Below the pieces are notes generated by a model. That model saw only the letters and a list, made by a program, of their open reading frames with translations, was not told the DNA's origin and did no database searches. Source: Alphaproteobacteria bacterium (GTDB taxonomy: Bacteria > Pseudomonadota > Alphaproteobacteria > UBA6615). From it: a DNA stretch of 56,740 nt. The DNA lies in NCBI GenBank assembly GCA_002727315.1, contig PBWR01000021.1:1-56740 (forward strand), read 5' to 3'. A program made the position numbers and the translations under genes. Of this stretch, positions 15,349 to 25,622 are shown in pieces; the stretch's first letter is position 1, and each line of letters opens with the position of its first letter.

Positions 15349-16554
15349 CTATGCGATTCGGGTGATTGTCGTGACATTCGAGCCCGGCTCCGCCGCCGGG
15401 CTCTGCCGAATGAAGCCGATCAACGCCCGCGAAATCTCGTCACGGCGGGAGATGATCGTAATACTGCCCGCGTCCCGCCTCAGATCGGTAACCGCATTGC
15501 AAAACCGGCGGACATTCTGCACATCACCGGAATCGAGGAGCCCGTCGAGGACGATCGGTCGGCCCCGATGGCTCAATGCCGCGACAATACACAGCCGGTC
15601 CCGTGCCATCTCAGCATAGATCTGAATGGGCGACTCCAGCAACGTCTCGGGCTCCGCGCTTGTCGAGAAGGCATCGAACAGGCCGACGCCATCGCGCAGC
15701 CGCCGGCGATACGGATTTAGCAATAGCAGGATGTTCCGGCCGTTCACCCAGGGCAGCTCGCCACGCCATGGCCGGAAAAACACCGCATCGTCGGGCACGC
15801 CGGCGCCGTCGCTTCGGTACCAGGTGCGGCCGTCCCAGGTCAGGTGACGGGTATCTGGATCATTCTGCGGGGCTTCATCCGCCGGAGCCCCCCTCAGGAC
15901 CCCGGACAGCACAACCAGAATGCTGACGGCAACGACCGCCGACATGGGAAGGATTTCCAGGCTGACGGGTACGATGTACCAGAGCGAGTTCTGGTAGGCA
16001 GCGATGAGATGGGAGGCGGGATTGAGGCTCGTGAGCAAGCTACTCGCGGCCGGCGGTATATCGCTGAACTGATACGCGACCGGTGAAAGGATCAACAACA
16101 GGACGAACGCAAACAGGATCGGCACCTCCGACACCAGCTGCCTTTGGGTCCGGGCATAGATGATCAGAAACACCAGGAGCGCGTTCCAGGTCAGCTGGAC
16201 GAGAATCGAGAACCCGCCCCATTTCGCCATGTGCAGGACCTCCGGCGGAGAACCGTGCACCACAACGACGAAACCCGACACGAGCAGGATGGATATCACG
16301 AAGACGACCGTCGAAGGCCCCATCGCCAGCAGCATCGTGGCCAGGAACGAACGCCGGTAGAACGGGCCGGAAACGTTTCGGAATTGCGCCACCCGCGAGG
16401 CCTGGATCGCACAGCCAACGGACCATCGAAGCGCGACAAGTCCTATCAGCATCGGCAGAAACCGTTCGGTTCCCGAGAACTTGAAGATCGCCACCATCAC
16501 CATCGTGATAGCCAGCGCATATAAGGCGACATCCAGGATCGACACCAATAGCAA
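15349..16554 (-). CDS. ABC-2 type polysaccharide exporter permease fused to a degenerate ABC ATPase-like domain
   Basis: From the TTG at 16554 there are 401 residues. Residues about 1-222 hold six membrane helices and the LNPASHLIAAYQ segment (177-188), which resembles the conserved NP motif of Wzm/KpsM permeases. After a short linker, residues about 300-385 look like the second half of a Wzt/KpsT ATPase: ESPIQIYAEMARDRL where YSSGMRARL is usual, IVLDGLLDSGD for Walker B plus D-loop, and TIISRRDEI for the switch histidine region. Walker A is not visible, the Walker B glutamate is Gly, and the switch His is Arg. The domain is therefore probably non-catalytic. No working ATPase partner is in the window. 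The frame also reads 39 codons further upstream without a normal start codon. Confidence 0.75.
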   Translation of the reverse strand: MLLVSILDVALYALAITMVMVAIFKFSGTERFLPMLIGLVALRWSVGCAIQASRVAQFRNVSGPFYRRSFLATMLLAMGPSTVVFVISILLVSGFVVVVHGSPPEVLHMAKWGGFSILVQLTWNALLVFLIIYARTQRQLVSEVPILFAFVLLLILSPVAYQFSDIPPAASSLLTSLNPASHLIAAYQNSLWYIVPVSLEILPMSAVVAVSILVVLSGVLRGAPADEAPQNDPDTRHLTWDGRTWYRSDGAGVPDDAVFFRPWRGELPWVNGRNILLLLNPYRRRLRDGVGLFDAFSTSAEPETLLESPIQIYAEMARDRLCIVAALSHRGRPIVLDGLLDSGDVQNVRRFCNAVTDLRRDAGSITIISRRDEISRALIGFIRQSPAAEPGSNVTTITRIA

Positions 16555-16654
16555 GACAGGCCCGCGCCAGGTGGTCGGATTGTAGCGATACCACCCGGCA
16601 TGCCAGGCAAGCCGGGTCAGCTTGCCCCACTCGGACGTGTTCGGTCGCGGGCTG

Positions 16655-17683
16655 TCAATCGCGTTGGGGATCTACGCCTCCTGCGCCATCTTCATCGGCG
16701 TCCACAAACAGACTGTACCATCCATTGCGATTTCGTGATTTTCCCCAGGTCGCCATGCGCAGGACCAGGGTCAGCCAGCGCGCATAGACGACGAACGACA
16801 CCAGCACGATAAACGCCGATGGATAATACTGCGCGAAGTTCGCCCGTACAAAGCGTATCAGCGAGGTGTGCTTGTGCATTTCCACGCGATAGGCCCGGTC
16901 GCGCCCGCTGACCCCGCCGACATGGTGCGCAATCGCGTTGGGAACGAACAGGACACACTGCCCAGCTGCACCGACGCGCATGCACCAGTCGAGATCCTCG
17001 AAATGCATGAAATAGCGTTCGTCGAGGAGCCCGACGAGGTTCACGACACGGCGGGGAATCAGCATGCAAGAACCGGATATGCTCTGGACACGTACTGTCT
17101 TGTCCGGAAGCTCCTCCCCTGTGGAATTGAAACTCCGGAACCTGGGATGCCTGGGCATCATGCGGTGCAGGCCGACCCCGACACAGAAAATCTGCCATGG
17201 CGTGGGAATTTCCCGGCGGCACCCGCGCTGCTCCGTACCGTCCATGTTCAGGATCAGCGGTCCTGCTGCTCCGGCCGCATCGTTCGCGGATAATTCCGCG
17301 AGCAATAACTCGAGCGTGTCAGGTTCCAGAAAACAATCCGGGTTCAAAAGCAGAATCTGGGTCCCGGTGCTTTCGGTAATTCCCCGATTGCAGCCGCTGG
17401 CGAAACCGAGGTTGGTTTCCATTTGCAAGACCACGACTCGGTCGTCGTCAATCTCGCCACGAAGATGATCGATGCTGCCATCCGTCGAGGCATTGTCCAC
17501 GATTATGCATTCGAGAGGCGGCAAGGTCTGCGTCAGGACTGTTCTCACGACATCGGTCAGAAGCGGACCGGTGTTGAAATTGACGATGACAACCGAGACC
17601 GACAGGGACCGAAAATCGCGGAGATATTCCCGATCCCCACCGTGGCCCTTCGTCTTCGATTGGATTCGGGCAGGTCCGGTCAT
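16655..17683 (-). CDS. GT2 glycosyltransferase, rhamnosyltransferase-like
   Basis: This 342-residue protein is a WbbL-like family 2 glycosyltransferase. It has VVIVNFNTG (31-39), VDNASTDGS (62-70), LLLNPDCF (111-118) in place of the DXD motif, and the acceptor-site FEDLDWC. A hydrophobic stretch near the C-terminus (FIVLVSFVVYARWL) suggests membrane association. The start at 17683 follows the stop of the lipoprotein hydrolase directly, so the two are probably coupled. Its stop lies inside the upstream reading frame of the permease, with an AGGAGG ribosome site for the next gene inside its last codons. Confidence 0.87.
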   Translation of the reverse strand: MTGPARIQSKTKGHGGDREYLRDFRSLSVSVVIVNFNTGPLLTDVVRTVLTQTLPPLECIIVDNASTDGSIDHLRGEIDDDRVVVLQMETNLGFASGCNRGITESTGTQILLLNPDCFLEPDTLELLLAELSANDAAGAAGPLILNMDGTEQRGCRREIPTPWQIFCVGVGLHRMMPRHPRFRSFNSTGEELPDKTVRVQSISGSCMLIPRRVVNLVGLLDERYFMHFEDLDWCMRVGAAGQCVLFVPNAIAHHVGGVSGRDRAYRVEMHKHTSLIRFVRANFAQYYPSAFIVLVSFVVYARWLTLVLRMATWGKSRNRNGWYSLFVDADEDGAGGVDPQRD

Positions 17684-17684
17684 G

Positions 17685-18560
17685 CTACTTCAGCCAGGTG
17701 GCATACAGGGTCGGCCAGCGCCGTTGCCAGCAGCAACGATGGTCGATATCCGGTATCATGACCACCTTGGCATTTCCGCCCTTTTCCCGCACACGCGCCG
17801 CGAATCGTTCCACCGCCTCGGGAGGCACGACATCATCATCCCCGGCAATGAAATGTATCTGGCGAATGGACGTTGTGCGGTCACTGACATCGATCGGATT
17901 GTCCGAACGTTCGAGCGGTGTAATCCTTTTCAAGCGAGTCCAGGTAACATGGTCGAGGGGTGAGGCAAGCGTCACGAACATCGAGACATCACTACGTCGT
18001 GACGCCACCAGAGCCGCCAGTACGCCCCCCCCGGAATAGCCTATCAGACGAACGCTCTGCGCTCCCGACGCCTTGACGATGGCATCCACGGCGGTGTTGG
18101 TCTCTTTCACGACCTCTGGCGCGAAGCGCGCCCGTGTCCAGTACGCGAAGCTGCACTTGGCCAACCGGTCGGGGCTCTGGTACTGGCAGGGACGGGCGAG
18201 GTAGGCAACGTTGGACGACGGATCCTGAACGGCAAGCCTGAGCGAGACCGGATCGCGCGGCGTAGGGTCCCTGGACACGACATCGCGGCTGAGGAATGCG
18301 AGACCGTCGCCCTCAATATAGACCGAGACTTCTGGCGCGCTCGTGCTTCCGAACCGCTTGTAACCGATCAGTTCAAACTGTCCAGTATCGACGAAAAATT
18401 TGTCGAGACGGCCGCCCGCCGCCACCCGGTTAGCGATATCGACACGCTCGCTGAGGACATCCGTAACCGCTTCGCAGCCCGTCAATGCAATGGCGAAGAT
18501 AGCTGTAACGAAAAAGGCCCGCCCTGAGGGGCGGGCCTTTCGGCGCATATATCTCGCCAT
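17685..18560 (-). CDS. Alpha/beta hydrolase lipoprotein
   Basis: From ATG 18560 (or the ATG at 18548) this is a 291-residue lipoprotein. A basic n-region and the hydrophobic FFVTAIFAIA precede LTGC, so Cys29 would be lipidated. The core carries LIGYSGGGVLAAL, the GxSxG nucleophile elbow of an alpha/beta hydrolase, a late Asp (FIAGDDDVVPP) and a C-terminal His (IDHRCCW), together a plausible Ser-Asp-His triad. The start is one base after the stop of the outer-membrane protein. Oddly, a perfect terminator hairpin lies inside the first 17 codons and encodes the signal peptide n-region. It could be an esterase acting on an exported glycan or lipid. Confidence 0.8.
   Translation of the reverse strand: MARYMRRKARPSGRAFFVTAIFAIALTGCEAVTDVLSERVDIANRVAAGGRLDKFFVDTGQFELIGYKRFGSTSAPEVSVYIEGDGLAFLSRDVVSRDPTPRDPVSLRLAVQDPSSNVAYLARPCQYQSPDRLAKCSFAYWTRARFAPEVVKETNTAVDAIVKASGAQSVRLIGYSGGGVLAALVASRRSDVSMFVTLASPLDHVTWTRLKRITPLERSDNPIDVSDRTTSIRQIHFIAGDDDVVPPEAVERFAARVREKGGNAKVVMIPDIDHRCCWQRRWPTLYATWLK
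18511..18540 (-). terminator. Strong rho-independent terminator overlapping the start of the lipoprotein gene
   Basis: A perfect 12 bp stem (AAAGGCCCGCCC / GGGCGGGCCTTT) with a 4-base loop spans 18513-18540 and ends in five Ts on the minus strand. It stands about 20 bases after the stop of the outer-membrane protein gene, in the right place to end that transcript. It also lies within the coding sequence of the next gene. Confidence 0.85.
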
Positions 18561-18561
18561 T

Positions 18562-19653
18562 CTAGAAGCTAAACCGGAGTGTACCAGACAGTGTGTAGGC
18601 CGAATAATCGTCACGACCGAGCGCGGTCGTGGCACCGATGCTGCCCGAAGTCCTATCGGAGAACTGCAACGAAGCACCAACGCCCAAAGTCGCGCCCGTA
18701 TCTTCCTGAGAAGGCCGGTTTGCACCCGTAAAGGAAGAGTAATCCTCGGATTCAAAGTCGTACTCACCTTGCAGCGATATGTATGGGACAAATTTCTCAC
18801 TAAGCACGTAGTCGACGCGACCACCCACGCTCAGACGACCCAACTGGCTGTCGGTTTCCGCGACAACTAATCCACCGCTTTCCGTGTAGCCATCTGTCGT
18901 GGTGTCCGACCAAAGTAAGCCAATCTTCGGCTGGACGATGAACCGGCCGCGCGTCAGTAGGTATGTGACGTTGGCGTTCGCCAGCCAACCACCCGAGTCA
19001 TAACTCGATGTGATGGTGTTGGTGGCACGATCCGCGTCGTTGTCGTTCATTGTGTAGCCGACCATACCATCAAGCAACACGTTTTGGTTCCTGCCGAGGA
19101 TCGCGACAAAGTAAGGCGCGACGGTATACCCGGTAGTGTCCACGTTGCCGTCGTTGAAGGTCGTTGTGACATCGGAATTGGAGTAAGCCAATGAAACGCC
19201 CGCCGTAAGCCGGTCAGAGAATTTCCAGTCTCCACCAACCGCCAACGAGAAGGTGTCGCCATCTGAATCGATCGCGGCCTGATCTTCATCGAATGTCGAG
19301 TAGCCACCATTCACCCACATCGCCAGCTTGCCATCAGCGCCGCCAGCCGATGCGCCCGAATCTGTTGTCTGGAAGCCTTCCCGATCGAACTGGAACACTG
19401 GTCGCTCATCAAGCGAACTCGTAGAGGTGTTCAAAATGGAGGAAATAATCCCTGAAATCGTTGACTGCGAGACGGAACCGGTGATGGCCGTCAGCGAATC
19501 CACAATTGCAACAACCTGATTGACTTGCGCAGCCGAAAGAGTCGTACCCGTCGCCGCCTTTTCGACTGCAGGATTTGCGTACGCCGGAGAAAGCGCAAAA
19601 ACGCTTATAAATCCAACTAACGCCCCCGCAAACAAATGTTCACGAACATTCAT
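18562..19653 (-). CDS. Outer-membrane autotransporter-like beta-barrel protein
   Basis: This 363-residue protein has a classic signal peptide (MNVREHLFAG, then a hydrophobic core, cleavage after AYA). A region of Ser, Thr and Ile-rich helices follows. The C-terminal half, about 260 residues, is made of alternating strands (KLAMWVNGGYST, LTAGVSLAYS, FVPYISLQGEYDF) and ends in LRFSF. The terminal Phe and the strand pattern match the autotransporter barrel domain recognised by the BAM complex. The passenger is short, so it is more likely a plain porin-like barrel than a large secreted adhesin. I chose ATG 19653, with GGGAG before it; an upstream extension to 19749 lacks a signal peptide. It has a 164 bp AT-rich leader region and a strong terminator directly after it. 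Confidence 0.83.
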   Translation of the reverse strand: MNVREHLFAGALVGFISVFALSPAYANPAVEKAATGTTLSAAQVNQVVAIVDSLTAITGSVSQSTISGIISSILNTSTSSLDERPVFQFDREGFQTTDSGASAGGADGKLAMWVNGGYSTFDEDQAAIDSDGDTFSLAVGGDWKFSDRLTAGVSLAYSNSDVTTTFNDGNVDTTGYTVAPYFVAILGRNQNVLLDGMVGYTMNDNDADRATNTITSSYDSGGWLANANVTYLLTRGRFIVQPKIGLLWSDTTTDGYTESGGLVVAETDSQLGRLSVGGRVDYVLSEKFVPYISLQGEYDFESEDYSSFTGANRPSQEDTGATLGVGASLQFSDRTSGSIGATTALGRDDYSAYTLSGTLRFSF

Positions 19654-19747
19654 GCTACCGACTCCCAACGTGCTTCTTAGCTGCCGTAATTTAGCAGATA
19701 TTCTGATGACACCAATTAAAATAGTAAATACCAGAAAGTTACCCGAC

Positions 19748-19799
19748 ATTGTGTTGTATTTTTATCACACGTGTTAACAATGTGTTGACAATAACACTC
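19748..19799 (-). promoter_or_regulatory. AT-rich control region upstream of the outer-membrane protein gene, with a CACGTG-centred palindrome
   Basis: The region is clearly AT-richer than its surroundings. It contains TTATCACACGTGTTAA (19763-19778), an imperfect palindrome around CACGTG, and two related GTGTT..AACAC elements to its sides. On the minus strand TTGTCA followed 18 bp later by TGATAA could be a promoter facing the outer-membrane gene. The layout suggests an operator for a dimeric regulator, but no regulator gene is nearby. Confidence 0.4.
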
Positions 19800-19817
19800 G
19801 CTGCGCCAGTTTCCGCA

Positions 19818-21809
19818 CTATTCCGCCTGCTTTTTCAGAAGCTGCTTCCGGAAATCCGACGACACAGGCAAGATTTTCTCGATTCCAAGCTCGAGAGACC
19901 TTCGCAACAGCTGGTCCGATTCGGCCTGCGAGCCCCGATCCCCCTTCACAGCCAGCGACAATCCAAGAAACCAATGACCGATAGGGTCACGCGGATCCGA
20001 CGCAACAAGAGCCCTGGCGAGAGATTCGACCGTGCGCCAGTTCCCAGATCCCATGTGATGGAGGAAGAAACCGGTCGTCATATCCTTGCGCTTGGGTGCG
20101 ACATTCAACAGCTGGGTCAACCCGACATGCCATCCTTCCAGCGAAGCCTGATATCTCTGACGCAACCAAACCGGAATGGAATCACTCGATACCTGGGACC
20201 GGAAAGATTCCAGCGCCAGATAGAGCGACGGAGATTCGCTGCTTGCCTGGCGCCGGCCCATCGAACACAGGTAGGCATCAACGAGCCTTAGATCGTCGAG
20301 CGGTATTTCAATCTCACTTTGGGAATCACGGAACACCGCCCGATAGGTCTGAACGAAGCCTTGGGTCAGGTCCAGATCACCGTATACCGGGCTGTTGGAA
20401 TGCAGGGCACAGGAGTGCGGGCTACCTGGACCAACCGTACGCACGTCCACGATCTGCCGGCGATAGGAGGTCCCCTCGTCCACCAGCCAGGAGCCCGTCG
20501 ACAAGAGAATGGCAACAATCACCGGCAACCCCAACACGACGGGGCGTCCGGTTCGCATCTGCAGGCGCGGCAATGCAGGCTGTCCACTGCAAACACCGAT
20601 CGACAACGCCACCATGCCAACGGTCATCGCGACCTGCGGCCACATCATGGTGAAACCGGCAAACAGAAACGTGGCAAAGATCGCCGGCATCAGCCGGGAC
20701 GCCTCGACGTTCACGATTGGGGCGGCAAGCATTGCCATGGTGCCAAGACCTGCCAGCAAGCCGGCCCCGAACAGGGCCTCCAGGAACCAGTTGTGTGTGT
20801 GCGGAATATCGCGTTCGTAGCCATCCCAGCTGCCGTCCCACAGAATCGCATCACTGAATGTGCGAAAACGGTCCGTGACCATGGAGATTTCTCCCCAGCC
20901 GGTGCCCCACAGAATGATTGTCGGGTCATCCTGCAGGGCCGCCAACAGAACCTGGAAATTGTATTTCCGCGAGGTAACCGACGGCAGAAAGTCTGTGATT
21001 TCCGGAATAAGCCAGACGGCACCAAACCCCACAAACGGAGACGCAAAAAGTGCCGCGACGACCATCGCGCGTACGTGATTGAGAGAAACCCCGAAGCGTT
21101 GAAGGAGCAGTCGCACCAGCAACATGACCGGCAGCGCAACGACGACAATCATCACGATCGCCGTGAGGTTCGCTGAGAAAATCAAGACCGGAAGTATGGC
21201 GTTGAGCGATGCGATCGGCCTCCACCGACGGTGCCGTTCGGGGACGAGATACCAGGCAGCGATCCAAGCCGAAACGACGGTGATGCCAAGCACATCCAGG
21301 CTGACAAATCCGGAACGTGCCCAGGTGTGGAACGCCAGCGACGCCCCGATCGAGGCCACCAGCAATGTGGCAAGCAACCAGAACAGCAGGCGACGGTCCT
21401 GGCGTAGGACCATCGCCGCAGCAAACAAAACGGCCATCGCCGCGAACCGCATTGCGCCTTCGCCGATCAGTGGATATCCGAGAATCGAAAGCCACGGATA
21501 GTCCGATGTCGGCGCGAGAGCGATGCTGAGAAGAAATACGAACAGGGCCGCCAGAACGAACGGATGAGACACGGCCTGTTCAACGCATGATTTATCCTCG
21601 CGCCAAACCAGAAGCAGCCCGATTCCGCAGATCGCGGCGGAAAAATACAGAGCCATCGCACCGGGCTCGAACCTGGGCCAGACGCCGAGATCGACCGGCA
21701 GCAATGCGGTAAAGACCGACAGCGCCGCCAGCATTGCGCCTGCCAGCAGCACCAACCCTCCAAACATCGGCACGTTGCGGACCGCCGTATCCTCGTCTAG
21801 CGATCCCAT
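19818..21809 (-). CDS. O-antigen polymerase/ligase-like membrane protein (Wzy/WaaL family)
   Basis: This 663-residue protein has about ten to twelve membrane helices in its first 450 residues. A periplasmic loop before the last helices contains HTHNWFLEALFGAGLLAGLG, which fits the conserved region of O-antigen ligases and polymerases. The C-terminal soluble region of about 200 residues includes a helix-rich part that may be TPR-like. It would join or polymerise undecaprenyl-linked oligosaccharides in the periplasm. The start at 21809 (GAAGG before it) overlaps the preceding small gene by 13 bp, a sign of translational coupling. Whether it is a ligase or a polymerase cannot be settled from the sequence. 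Confidence 0.82.
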   Translation of the reverse strand: MGSLDEDTAVRNVPMFGGLVLLAGAMLAALSVFTALLPVDLGVWPRFEPGAMALYFSAAICGIGLLLVWREDKSCVEQAVSHPFVLAALFVFLLSIALAPTSDYPWLSILGYPLIGEGAMRFAAMAVLFAAAMVLRQDRRLLFWLLATLLVASIGASLAFHTWARSGFVSLDVLGITVVSAWIAAWYLVPERHRRWRPIASLNAILPVLIFSANLTAIVMIVVVALPVMLLVRLLLQRFGVSLNHVRAMVVAALFASPFVGFGAVWLIPEITDFLPSVTSRKYNFQVLLAALQDDPTIILWGTGWGEISMVTDRFRTFSDAILWDGSWDGYERDIPHTHNWFLEALFGAGLLAGLGTMAMLAAPIVNVEASRLMPAIFATFLFAGFTMMWPQVAMTVGMVALSIGVCSGQPALPRLQMRTGRPVVLGLPVIVAILLSTGSWLVDEGTSYRRQIVDVRTVGPGSPHSCALHSNSPVYGDLDLTQGFVQTYRAVFRDSQSEIEIPLDDLRLVDAYLCSMGRRQASSESPSLYLALESFRSQVSSDSIPVWLRQRYQASLEGWHVGLTQLLNVAPKRKDMTTGFFLHHMGSGNWRTVESLARALVASDPRDPIGHWFLGLSLAVKGDRGSQAESDQLLRRSLELGIEKILPVSSDFRKQLLKKQAE

Positions 21810-22108
21810 AAACGACCTTCTGACCGACCGTGACGGTCGAAATGAACCAGCGGCCCATAGATGCCTTGCACGCCGTTTTCGCCAAAGAATGGATGCGCGG
21901 CCACATCGGGATAGCGTTTCCAATACGCCTTTGCGCGCCGTTCGGCGCGATCCAGTGGTGTGTGCCGTGCAATGTATGCTTTGCGCTCGGCAATCTCCTC
22001 GGACAACAGCGAGGATTGGAACGCCCCAACCGTATAGAGACCAAGCGCAACAAGGATGGCCGCAACACCGACAATCGCCGGTAGACGGACAGAATCGAGG
22101 GACGTCAT
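21797..22108 (-). CDS. Small single-pass membrane protein with a PDV/HGRSEGR motif
   Basis: This 103-residue protein has one N-terminal membrane helix (about 9-28) and a basic, charged region. Its C-terminus reads YWKRYPDVAAHPFFG, then HFDRHGRSEGRLW. This resembles the short YPDV...HYxxHGxxEGR element that recurs in alphaproteobacterial glycan and surface proteins. It overlaps the sulfatase-like gene by 4 bp upstream and the polymerase/ligase gene by 13 bp downstream, so it is translated with them and may be an accessory subunit. I cannot name the family. Confidence 0.72.
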   Translation of the reverse strand: MTSLDSVRLPAIVGVAAILVALGLYTVGAFQSSLLSEEIAERKAYIARHTPLDRAERRAKAYWKRYPDVAAHPFFGENGVQGIYGPLVHFDRHGRSEGRLWDR

Positions 22109-23742
22109 TTCGCGAACTCCAGCTCGAGCCACTCGCTCCATTGTCCCCCCCCGCGCGGTCGCACCCGGAAGCGGACCTGCCGATAGGGGACGATCCACGT
22201 GGACCAGTAGGATTTCCCGATCTCTCCGAAATCGTATCGGGTCCCGTCGACTTCTATCGTGCCATCGAGGGTCAGGAAACCCGATCCAGCCTCGTACTCC
22301 AGTATATGGCTGGCATCCGCATCGCCGCTCCACTGAAGATAAGCCTCACCAGCGATATCGGCGTATCGAACCTGACCAACGATCCGCGGGTGCTCCCAAC
22401 GCGGTGCCAACGCATCGGTTCCGACATTCGTCTCGTCTCGGTCACTCTCCCGTTTTGGCAGACTGGCAATCTTGTCTTCGAGCAGCGCGAGCAATTGCTG
22501 AAATGTCTCATCGGGGGCAGGCACGGGCGACACCTCACCCGGATCGTCACGCAGGTTCCATCCCGCAACGCCGACGATCTGACCATCATCTACCTCCACC
22601 TGCACCTTGGCCGACCCCTTGCTGGCAGCCGCCACGAATCGGTTCACGCGCTCTGGATCCGGTTCGGCGAAACCGGCGGCTGAGGTCAATGCGAACCAGA
22701 CATCATCGGATGGTGGGAGCCAATCCGGTTTTCCGCCGGAAGACCGAGGCGAACCGGCATCCTCCAGACCGACCAGCCGTTTAAGCATGCCAGCAATCAT
22801 CGCGTGATCGGTCTGGTGTTCAAACACGGAGCCCGGCGGAACATCGAGGAGATCCTTCGGCATCCAGATGAAGAGCGGCACCCTGACGATTTCCTCGTGA
22901 AGGTGACCGACGTGCGTGGTCGAGGCATGCCCCACATTGCCGCGTTCGAGAAGCTCCTCGCCGTGATCTGCGGTGACCACAAGGATCGTGTTCCCGTCCA
23001 ACCCGATACGCCGATAGAACCGCCAGAACTCGGCAAACCATTCGTCGAAATCTCGAACACCGCCCAGATACTCGGATTCAACCCAACGCCGGTCGGATGC
23101 CTCAAACTCCACGGATCCGGCAGGAATGACAGGCTTGGTGGCGACAGCCTCGATCCGCGATGCCAGAGCCGGATCACTTTCCACCTCGTCGGCCGGCGGA
23201 ACATAAAGACCTTCGTGGGACCCGAATTGCCGCTGATAAGGCAGGTGCGTCGGCAGGTAGTGGTACCAGAGATAGAAAGGTTGACGATCGCGCGCCCGGC
23301 TCGCGAGCCAGTGTTTGATATCGGCACCGGAATCAATCTCCAGACCGAGATTCTTGAACAGGTCGATCAGCATGAACGACTGCAGACCCGTTACTTGCCA
23401 TCCGCCACGCGCAAACTGCTCGGACACTGTGTCCAACTCCGCCGGAATCGAATAGCCCCGCGTATGGGCGTTCTGTTCGAACGGAGAGAAGCCGCTCAGA
23501 AGCGCGATCGTATTGGGTGCGGTCCAGGCGGACACGGTTCGATGATTGGTAAATTGCAGGCCGTGCGGACCGGATTCGAGCAGCAGATGCGGCATATGCT
23601 CCTCGAGCACCGAATCCGCGCGCCAGCTCTCGACCGTGAGCAAGATGACGTTGAGTGGCCGCTCGCGCACCAGGTCATAGGCCGCGGCCATCGCCAGCGC
23701 GACGAGAAGCGCAATGCTAGGCAAAGTCAAGGAGCGCAACAT
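22105..23742 (-). CDS. Sulfatase / alkaline-phosphatase-fold protein with Thr at the nucleophile position
   Basis: This 545-residue membrane-anchored protein has one N-terminal helix and then the sulfatase-type fold. VILLTVESWRADS (32-44) supplies an early metal-binding acidic pair region, TADHGEEL a late Asp-His pair, and HLHEEIVRVPLFIW is typical of the family. At the usual formylglycine position (CxPxR) the sequence is TAPNT, with Thr74 and no Cys or Ser in the consensus. That argues against a true formylglycine sulfatase and points to a Thr-using phospho- or phosphoglycerol-transferase (LtaS or EptA style). A C-terminal beta-rich domain of about 110 residues follows. The gene overlaps the VanZ-like gene by 26 bp and the next gene by 4 bp. 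Confidence 0.78.
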   Translation of the reverse strand: MLRSLTLPSIALLVALAMAAAYDLVRERPLNVILLTVESWRADSVLEEHMPHLLLESGPHGLQFTNHRTVSAWTAPNTIALLSGFSPFEQNAHTRGYSIPAELDTVSEQFARGGWQVTGLQSFMLIDLFKNLGLEIDSGADIKHWLASRARDRQPFYLWYHYLPTHLPYQRQFGSHEGLYVPPADEVESDPALASRIEAVATKPVIPAGSVEFEASDRRWVESEYLGGVRDFDEWFAEFWRFYRRIGLDGNTILVVTADHGEELLERGNVGHASTTHVGHLHEEIVRVPLFIWMPKDLLDVPPGSVFEHQTDHAMIAGMLKRLVGLEDAGSPRSSGGKPDWLPPSDDVWFALTSAAGFAEPDPERVNRFVAAASKGSAKVQVEVDDGQIVGVAGWNLRDDPGEVSPVPAPDETFQQLLALLEDKIASLPKRESDRDETNVGTDALAPRWEHPRIVGQVRYADIAGEAYLQWSGDADASHILEYEAGSGFLTLDGTIEVDGTRYDFGEIGKSYWSTWIVPYRQVRFRVRPRGGGQWSEWLELEFAK

Positions 23743-24529
23743 TGATCACCAAAGGGTAGATAGCAAACAACATGCAAATTGCGCTGATCGCACGAATGGC
23801 CGCACGATCGCCCGGTTCGTCCTGTCGCTCCGCCCAGAGCGCAACGGTAACTGCCGCGGCTAATACGGGCAGGACCGACCAGTAGGGAATAAGGTCGAAG
23901 CGGAAGGCGACACCCGCAAACGCCAGGAGGACCACACCGACAATAACTGTCGAAACAATGCCGACCAGGCCGTAATCCACTTTCCCGATGCCGGCCTCCG
24001 GCTTTTTTCGCGTGGGAACTTTCGCGATTGCGCGAACAAAGAACACGCCGGCCAGGACGCCACAAACGTCGGTGAGCATATCGCGGATACCGAACGAGCG
24101 CTGCGGGTGAATTCCCTGCAGAAACTCGTCATGAACGCCGTACAGCGCGCCTGCAAGTATCACTAGGAACAGCGTGCGCGGCGTCTGGTCGGCCGATTTG
24201 ATGGAAAACCAAACGACGAGACCCAGAAGAGCATACTGCGGTACGTGGATGCGCTTAGCCGCATATATCGGGTCGGTTGATCCGAGGCCGACCAGCACCA
24301 TTGCGACCGCTGCGACCAACCAGGGCCAGGCGATCGTCATTCCGCCGCGTCGCAATTGCAGCGCCAGGAACACCGCGATCAGCACAAACGCAACGCCGAC
24401 GACGATGAACGGCAGGGCATCGACAACCCCCCTGCCAAACTGCTGACCGATAAAACGCCAGGCAACAAACATGTTGGTATAGGTGATCACCAGCAGTACC
24501 GCGATGACGTGAACAAAGACCGTCCGCAT
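23717..24529 (-). CDS. VanZ-like membrane protein
   Basis: This 270-residue protein has about seven to eight membrane helices. In the middle, YGVHDEFLQGIHPQRSFGIRD precedes a helix containing DVCGVLAG. These match the VanZ pattern (DE-Q-x-RxF-x-D-x2-N/D). VanZ-type proteins are linked to resistance to lipoglycopeptides and to cell-envelope assembly, but their activity is unclear. I chose the ATG at 24529; a TTG start at 24565 is possible. The stop overlaps the start of the sulfatase-fold gene by 26 bp, so the two probably act together at the membrane. Confidence 0.8.
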   Translation of the reverse strand: MRTVFVHVIAVLLVITYTNMFVAWRFIGQQFGRGVVDALPFIVVGVAFVLIAVFLALQLRRGGMTIAWPWLVAAVAMVLVGLGSTDPIYAAKRIHVPQYALLGLVVWFSIKSADQTPRTLFLVILAGALYGVHDEFLQGIHPQRSFGIRDMLTDVCGVLAGVFFVRAIAKVPTRKKPEAGIGKVDYGLVGIVSTVIVGVVLLAFAGVAFRFDLIPYWSVLPVLAAAVTVALWAERQDEPGDRAAIRAISAICMLFAIYPLVINVALLDFA

Positions 24530-24603
24530 GACCCCGACACCCAGAATTAGTTGCGCCCGTTCCAACTAAAGAAGAAGCGCTCAAGTATCCACCGGGAAAA
24601 CCA

Positions 24604-25551
24604 CTACTCGCCGACCCGATAGAGTTCGTTGAAAATCCATCCAGCCCGGCCCTCTATCGACACCAGTGACCACTCATCGTGTCGTTCAAGGATCTGTCCT
24701 TCCCGGATTCCGCTATCCACTTGTGCCACAACGGGACAAGCTGTGCTCCCGCAACGCCGCATATTCGCGCGACTGGCGCGCAGCTCGATCGACCTTAACG
24801 GCGGCGGCGGGTAGTTATAGGGGTCCAGGTTTATCTGTGCCGACACGCGGCGCCGGGTGCTGTCACCGTCTGGTTCGACCTCCACGGAGTGCGAACCAAT
24901 CAGCGGCGCCAAACGAGCGGGCACACCGGGAATAACAGCCCAGGCGGAAATGCGATTGTCCGCGCAAGACGGCAAGTCACCGGCGTAGATCTGCGCCGCC
25001 CAACCGGACCTTAACAAATTGGGGTGAACCCCCTCGGCAACATCCGAACGGTCGACGGTCACCTGCGCTCGCGCGACTATTCTGTTGCACCTTGCCAACA
25101 ACACGTCGGAAATACGCAAGCCCAGTCCGGGGTCACCAGCCCATCCGTGCGCCGCCATCAAGGTATTCGCGGGCACAGGGCCACCACCGGCCGGTAGGTT
25201 GGCGATCCTTAGGACATCGAAATGGCCAACCGATGTTTGGACCATCGACCACGTGGTAAGTGGCATTTGTTCGGACGGAGAAAAGGAATCGACGAGGACA
25301 ACCGGCTCGGCGTCACCGTCCAGCTCGAGTTCGGGCCTTACCAAGCCCGTATCCGGAACCGGCTCGCTCGGCGCTGCTTCGTCGGGCGGTCCGTCCGCCT
25401 CCGGCGGAGCAGGAATTTCAGTGTCTTGCCGGGCGGTTTCAGGCGCCGGGCCGGTATGCCTCTGCTCATCGGGATCGGAGCGAAACAGCAGGAAACCAGC
25501 GACCAGAACCACGAGGCCGGTCAGCAGTAGTGTCCAACGATTGATACGCAT
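24604..25551 (-). CDS. Membrane-anchored protein with C-terminal SH3b-like domain
   Basis: This 315-residue protein begins MRINRW and has a membrane helix (about 6-22), a Pro/Glu/Asp-rich linker of about 60 residues and a beta-rich middle region with cysteines. It ends in a bacterial SH3-like fold (from about 255): ASRANMRRCG, REGQILERHDEWSLVSI and GWIFNELY follow the usual SH3b pattern. Such domains bind cell-wall or glycan ligands in the periplasm. The start ATG 25551 has GAGAGG before it, with short spacing. It lies 72 bp after the Sel1-repeat gene and 75 bp before the VanZ-like gene. No enzymatic motif was seen. Confidence 0.72.
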   Translation of the reverse strand: MRINRWTLLLTGLVVLVAGFLLFRSDPDEQRHTGPAPETARQDTEIPAPPEADGPPDEAAPSEPVPDTGLVRPELELDGDAEPVVLVDSFSPSEQMPLTTWSMVQTSVGHFDVLRIANLPAGGGPVPANTLMAAHGWAGDPGLGLRISDVLLARCNRIVARAQVTVDRSDVAEGVHPNLLRSGWAAQIYAGDLPSCADNRISAWAVIPGVPARLAPLIGSHSVEVEPDGDSTRRRVSAQINLDPYNYPPPPLRSIELRASRANMRRCGSTACPVVAQVDSGIREGQILERHDEWSLVSIEGRAGWIFNELYRVGE

Positions 25552-25622
25552 CTGCCTCTCGTGACAATCGCCTGAAAACACCGGCACGGCCTCCAAGGCG
25601 CGACCCCGACGTTACCGATTGT

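Follow-up and report, generated by a model that had tools for sequence, protein, structure and literature searches.

The closest described system is the Wzm–Wzt O-antigen ABC transporter of Aquifex aeolicus, represented by PDB entries 6m96, 6amx/6oih, 7k2t and 8dku, the last two of which we take to be Wzm–Wzt structures. The entries 6m96 and 6oih are named Wzm–WztN in PMC8386196, which characterises type V permeases by an amphipathic helix at the N-terminus and by re-entrant helices that lie between TM5 and TM6. In TarGH, a type V teichoic acid transporter, a coupling helix docks in a groove of the NBD, according to PMC7078476. PMC11466899 treats ABC transporters with one degenerate site as familiar and names RbsA and NupO as fused NBD proteins whose second site is degenerate. 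In our searches of the open-licence PMC literature, no title or abstract retrieved described a permease carrying a half-NBD without Walker A. Such an arrangement is encoded in the 56,740-nucleotide stretch of alphaproteobacterial DNA analysed here (contig PBWR01000021.1, hereafter the window), where a weakly Wzm-like membrane part continues into a tail that shares homology with a Wzt-type NBD over the latter's second half.

The fused gene, its family and its locus

The fused gene lies on the minus strand at 15349..16671, with its first TTG at 16554. The open frame of 15349–16554 given in the first-pass annotation, which named no strand, is borne out exactly. The frame, however, is stop-free upstream as far as 16671, corresponding to 440 residues as against 401 from TTG 16554, and in the homologues the first membrane segment is preceded by about 30 extra residues at the N-terminus; for these reasons the TTG is probably internal, and a start there would truncate the protein, the true start lying further upstream. 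The frame contains no ATG, GTG or TTG codon between TTG 16554 and its limit at 16671. An ATC at 16671 stands 5 bases downstream of a GGAGG, so that a rare start codon is possible. Within 16554–16681, a homologue-like start would need this ATC, an ATT or a CTG, the alternative being an assembly error. Residue numbers below refer to the 440-residue frame. At the other end of the gene, the final codons contain a perfect 9-bp inverted repeat (15380–15403; GAGCCCGGC, a 6-base loop, GCCGGGCTC) that is not followed by a T-run.

Homologues with the same fusion, whose existence the first-pass annotation had left as a question, do exist. The gene is real and belongs to what looks like a genuine, if small and unlabelled, protein family with members in six alphaproteobacterial genomes (the window genome, G006, G022, G333, G402 and G409); the tail is complete in five of them, the G333 copy being cut off by a contig end. 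Among 191 relatives, the window protein retrieved two clear homologues besides itself, one in G006, of the same genus (41%), and one in G022, of the same family (39%). The G333 member was found via GT2 neighbourhoods, and the other two came from profile searches: five of 385 class genomes were matched, four of them with true members including that of G402, and a search of the G409 family, with matches in two of nine genomes, added the G409 member; in the order of G402, one of five genomes was matched. The fifth match among the class genomes, in G066, was attributed to chance from a reading of its ORFs. Two further weak matches were rejected, the genes reading as CvpA-like (L004) and of pilus-assembly type (L072), and a stretch of L025 similar to FRPWRGELPW was dismissed because no additional permease sequence surrounds it. 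Plasmid sequences gave no match, 21 pattern matches in viral contigs included no relative, and a scan of genome contigs returned one relative, on a 6979-base contig equal in size to that of G022. Pfam assigned no family to five of the six members and one irrelevant match (E 0.3) to that of G333, with no ABC or ABC2_membrane match in any of the six; for the three members scanned against NCBIfam, nothing fell under E 0.03 and no ABC match appeared.

The family is linked to a GT2 glycosyltransferase gene (PF00535; 16655..17683, minus strand), whose orthologue adjoins the fused gene in five of the six genomes. In the window, G006 and G022 it lies immediately upstream of the fused gene; in G333 and G409 the two genes are neighbours in divergent orientation, and only 107 residues of the GT2 are visible in G409. 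The G402 locus has its orthologous GT2 at a distance of about 8 kb from the permease, which is followed by a different GT2 gene (28.5% identical). A search of 24 family genomes found GT2 (E 1e-60) and permease in the same three. A 723-residue frame around the GT2 of G333 runs antisense over the permease and was rejected as a fusion.

The GT2 gene belongs to an envelope locus at 16655–25596 that also comprises alpha/beta hydrolase, autotransporter, ligase-like, sulfatase-family, VanZ and SH3 genes. The corresponding loci of G006, G402 and G238 contain counterparts of all of these, and that of G333, where the order is rearranged, of all except SH3. Since neither G238 nor G136 gave a permease match, the permease is an optional companion of this conserved locus. 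A 701-residue ORF at 19818–21923, without a Pfam match, reads as O-antigen-ligase-like with a repeat tail, and has counterparts in G006, G402, G238 and G333.

Homology and motif loss in the tail

The tail (15352..15777, minus strand; residues 299–440) is about 140 residues long, and the ABC ATPase nearest to it is Wzt. It had been described as spanning some 85 residues (300–385), an extent that did not hold: the alignable part begins with FRPWRGELPW, at residue 260 of the 401-residue protein (299 of 440), about 40 residues before the proposed boundary, and the tail is therefore longer. The proposed likeness to the second half of Wzt/KpsT itself exceeds chance, several searches converging on one register. 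A profile of all six members, compared with all PDB sequences, placed Wzt chains in the top four rows (E 4.6e-5 to 1.5e-4), with profile positions 325–418 on chain residues 114–209; the best 60 of its 80 PDB matches (E up to 10) comprised 59 ABC ATPases and one mitoribosomal protein. A profile of the three closest members picked up the genuine Wzt that G006 encodes (E 0.0046), together with two further matches (E 0.007 and 0.008). With hhalign, the tail scored 74% (P 2.8e-5) against a two-Wzt profile; against 176 ORFs, duplicates included, the Wzt of G006 reached 86%, a DppF-like ATPase 39.5% and the Wzt of the window genome 4%, the next ORF standing at 2.1%. In the reverse direction, the DppF-like sequence used as a query on six-frame segments of the window matched the fused gene only (E 3.2e-4), and two Wzt queries on the window segments did not report it at E up to 1.

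Single sequences gave fainter signals. Against the PDB, the G409 protein alone matched the ABC ATPase 1vpl (E 0.0091), that of G402 had a non-ABC protein as its best row (E 0.24) and Wzt second (E 1.3), and the window protein alone had no match at E up to 10. From the 51 weak non-family matches of the window protein, the 27 with a locus were inspected: ABC-type ATPases accounted for eight of the 18 that started at residue 230 or later and for none of the nine that started earlier. Seven of these eight were identified by an ABC profile (E below 1e-20) and one, of SMC type, by reading (E 0.01); L005, on its match strand, is a true ABC ATPase. The sequence-level outcome that would have overturned the first-pass reading did not arise: it is ABC ATPases with which the tail aligns, and the searches turned up no other domain in it.

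The catalytic motifs have been lost from this tail, as the first-pass annotation had claimed: IYAEMARDRL, IVLDGLLDSGD and TIISRRDEI do occur in that order at the signature, Walker B and switch positions, and Walker A, the Walker B glutamate and the switch histidine are all absent from the window protein. The comparison of homologues extends this picture to the family. A search for Walker A succeeded in none of the six members, and no more than 33 residues (266–298) separate the sixth membrane segment from the point where alignment with an NBD begins, which indicates that the Walker A-bearing part of the NBD is missing, not mutated. The stretch previously read as signature-like (YAEMARDRLC, 15589..15618, minus strand) occupies the expected position, but its residues are not conserved, the relatives reading YAEM, FPDR, MSHS, YPDW and CPDR; by pattern and by eye, an ABC signature was seen in none of the five complete tails, with the reservation that the pattern also misses the YSAGM of the window genome's own Wzt, one of four controls. 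At the Walker B and D-loop position (IVLDGLLDSGD, 15523..15555, minus strand), the Asp is retained in four of the five complete tails and replaced by Asn in G402, and the catalytic Glu, Gly in the window protein, is found in none. The switch strand position (SITIISRRDE, 15436..15465, minus strand) lacks His, as do the aligned positions of all five complete tails; ASH, VTH or VSH strings in four members were discarded as switch candidates, all being located within the membrane part. The G022 homologue (L035:2397-3704) has a 17-residue insertion directly ahead of the Walker B-like strand. With the Walker A half missing and the remaining catalytic residues lost, the tail, judged by its sequence, cannot form an ATP site by itself, and the earlier view that it could hardly hydrolyse ATP is supported on the same grounds.

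What the tail has kept lies elsewhere. F299, W302, G304 and L317 are invariant in all six members, the first three forming an FxxWxG motif at 15760..15777 (minus strand). The FxxW portion is missing from four aligned Wzt sequences, in which the G is present. The Q-loop region of ABC transporters touches the permease, and the aligned FxxWxG position is near this region; this proximity leads us to suggest a docking function for the tail.

The membrane part and the possible roles of the fusion

The membrane part (15877..16671, minus strand; residues 1–265) of the window protein resolves by hydropathy into six segments after merging, in line with the six helices claimed for it. The core of the first-pass reading, that a polysaccharide-permease-like protein carries a degenerate second half of Wzt/KpsT type, stands, but the membrane part is less securely a Wzm than that reading implied, given the lack of a Pfam match and an hhalign score of 5.7% (P 0.0067) against three Wzm, collinear over 208 columns. 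Wzm was nevertheless the best of seven groups compared, the score of the ABC-2 group being unused (one member out of frame). Among single ORFs, several ABC-2 permeases were near the top (1.6–4.3%), with one unrelated ORF above them (4.7%). In view of the low profile similarity and this higher-scoring unrelated ORF, we call the membrane part weakly Wzm-like rather than a proven Wzm. AlphaFold2 models built from two sequences each were unusable for both the full protein (pLDDT 44.7) and the tail (pLDDT 46.3); the former places short helices where they would fit the type V features. Foldseek with the tail model returned no ABC protein among its best 50 matches, the top rows being a mitoribosomal protein, eRF1-type chains and reverse transcriptases, a result that we judged meaningless at such confidence.

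The explanation we favour, to which we give about an even chance of being correct, is that a half-NBD devoid of catalytic function is fused to a divergent Wzm-like permease and has been retained in a docking or structural capacity. We propose that (i) the protein would combine a divergent Wzm-like (type V) glycan permease with the C-terminal second half of a Wzt-like ATPase; (ii) the tail would have been retained since it still packs on the permease, forming an integral module for docking, capping or dimer contact; (iii) the protein may act as an accessory membrane subunit of the envelope-glycan locus, alongside the adjacent GT2; and (iv) ATP, if used at all, would be supplied via a separate Wzt. 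A composite site formed with such a Wzt would miss the tail-side signature, which counts against a shared active site. Packing or docking as the cause of retention, a role in glycan export and, with weak support, a Wzm ancestry of the membrane part are the inferred elements, and several points speak against this explanation: the unusable models, the weak likeness to Wzm, the less conserved tail and the faint single-sequence matches, with the genome's own Wzt at 4%. A bolder and tentative version, on balance improbable, would see a lineage of type V glycan permeases without an ATP motor of its own, in which the permease-facing half of the NBD has been kept as a fused, evolving part with FxxWxG as a new contact motif; the protein could then be an ATP-independent glycan channel, a scaffold for the GT2, or a dead half-motor with a regulatory effect on a separate Wzt.

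How the tail has evolved bears directly on a more doubtful explanation, according to which it is the decaying relic of an old permease–ATPase fusion that lost its motor, under relaxed constraint and with the membrane part alone being of importance. Tail identity is below membrane-part identity in 15 of 15 pairs, at 26–29% versus 42–44% for the closest three members, and the tails of these three stop before the Wzt C-terminus that is still present in those of G402 and G409. Both observations are compatible with decay. However, the tails of the five complete copies have remained open, stop-free frames at 18–29% tail identity, codon position 3 is richer in GC than position 2 over the tail in all five, which is coding-type composition at such GC content, and the F, W and G of FxxWxG have not varied in six members.

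The distribution of complete ATPases speaks to another explanation, which we consider unlikely: that the fused protein is one half of a heteromeric transporter with a canonical Wzm and Wzt, its tail replacing or regulating one Wzt. The window itself does not supply such a partner. Three ABC ATPase queries found nothing in it besides the fused gene, and a complementary Walker A fragment, sought as GxxGxGK[ST] or [LI]SGG[QEM] strings in window segments of at least 50 aa, did not appear. The same genome (87% complete) encodes a canonical Wzm–Wzt pair on contig C12; its Wzt has Walker A, Walker B and switch His intact and is, by these motifs, a candidate for the separate working ATPase that the first-pass annotation had considered. 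Pairs also exist in G006, G402 and G409 (the Wzm of the latter two named by reading), and in G022 a Wzm gene precedes the start of a Wzt-like gene that is cut by the contig end, so that the pair or its start is present in five of the six genomes bearing the fused gene. The Wzt is about 25 kb from the fused gene on the same contig in G006 and G402 (the G402 pair at L096:8908-10448), and there is precedent for ABC transporters in which one site is degenerate (PMC11466899). Against a heteromeric partnership, no examined locus has the canonical pair beside the fused gene, G333 (86% complete) yielded no pair, its best match resembling another ABC ATPase, and Wzt also occurs in G238, a genome without the fused gene. 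Moreover, with neither Walker A nor a recognisable signature in the tail, neither composite ATP site would be canonical. That the tail is an unrelated cytoplasmic domain resembling ABC proteins by accident is very improbable: the missing Pfam ABC matches in six members and NCBIfam ABC matches in the three scanned, the low-confidence tail model without ABC proteins among its best 50 Foldseek matches and the non-ABC best PDB row of G402 would fit it, but the convergence of several searches on the same register does not.

Comparison with known systems

The half-NBD, if functional, would show, in a natural protein, docking by an NBD uncoupled from its ATPase activity and would permit a direct test of what an NBD does beyond hydrolysis, in a family defined here that has no Pfam label. 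RbsA and NupO resemble the fused protein in retaining a domain although one ATP site is devoid of key residues; they differ in having two full-length NBDs per chain, and neither a permease fusion nor a half domain. TarGH is similar in two respects, since the weaker matches of the six-member profile include TarH and TagH chains and its docking contact is like the one proposed here, but its NBD is a separate and complete subunit. The Wzm–Wzt transporter provides the closest parallel for both parts of the protein: the tail aligns with the latter half of the Wzt NBD, and the six-segment membrane part aligns, weakly and collinearly, to the Wzm of these genomes. In contrast to Wzm–Wzt, where permease and NBD are encoded by separate genes and the NBD is complete, the NBD described here is fused to the membrane part and has neither its first half nor its catalytic residues.
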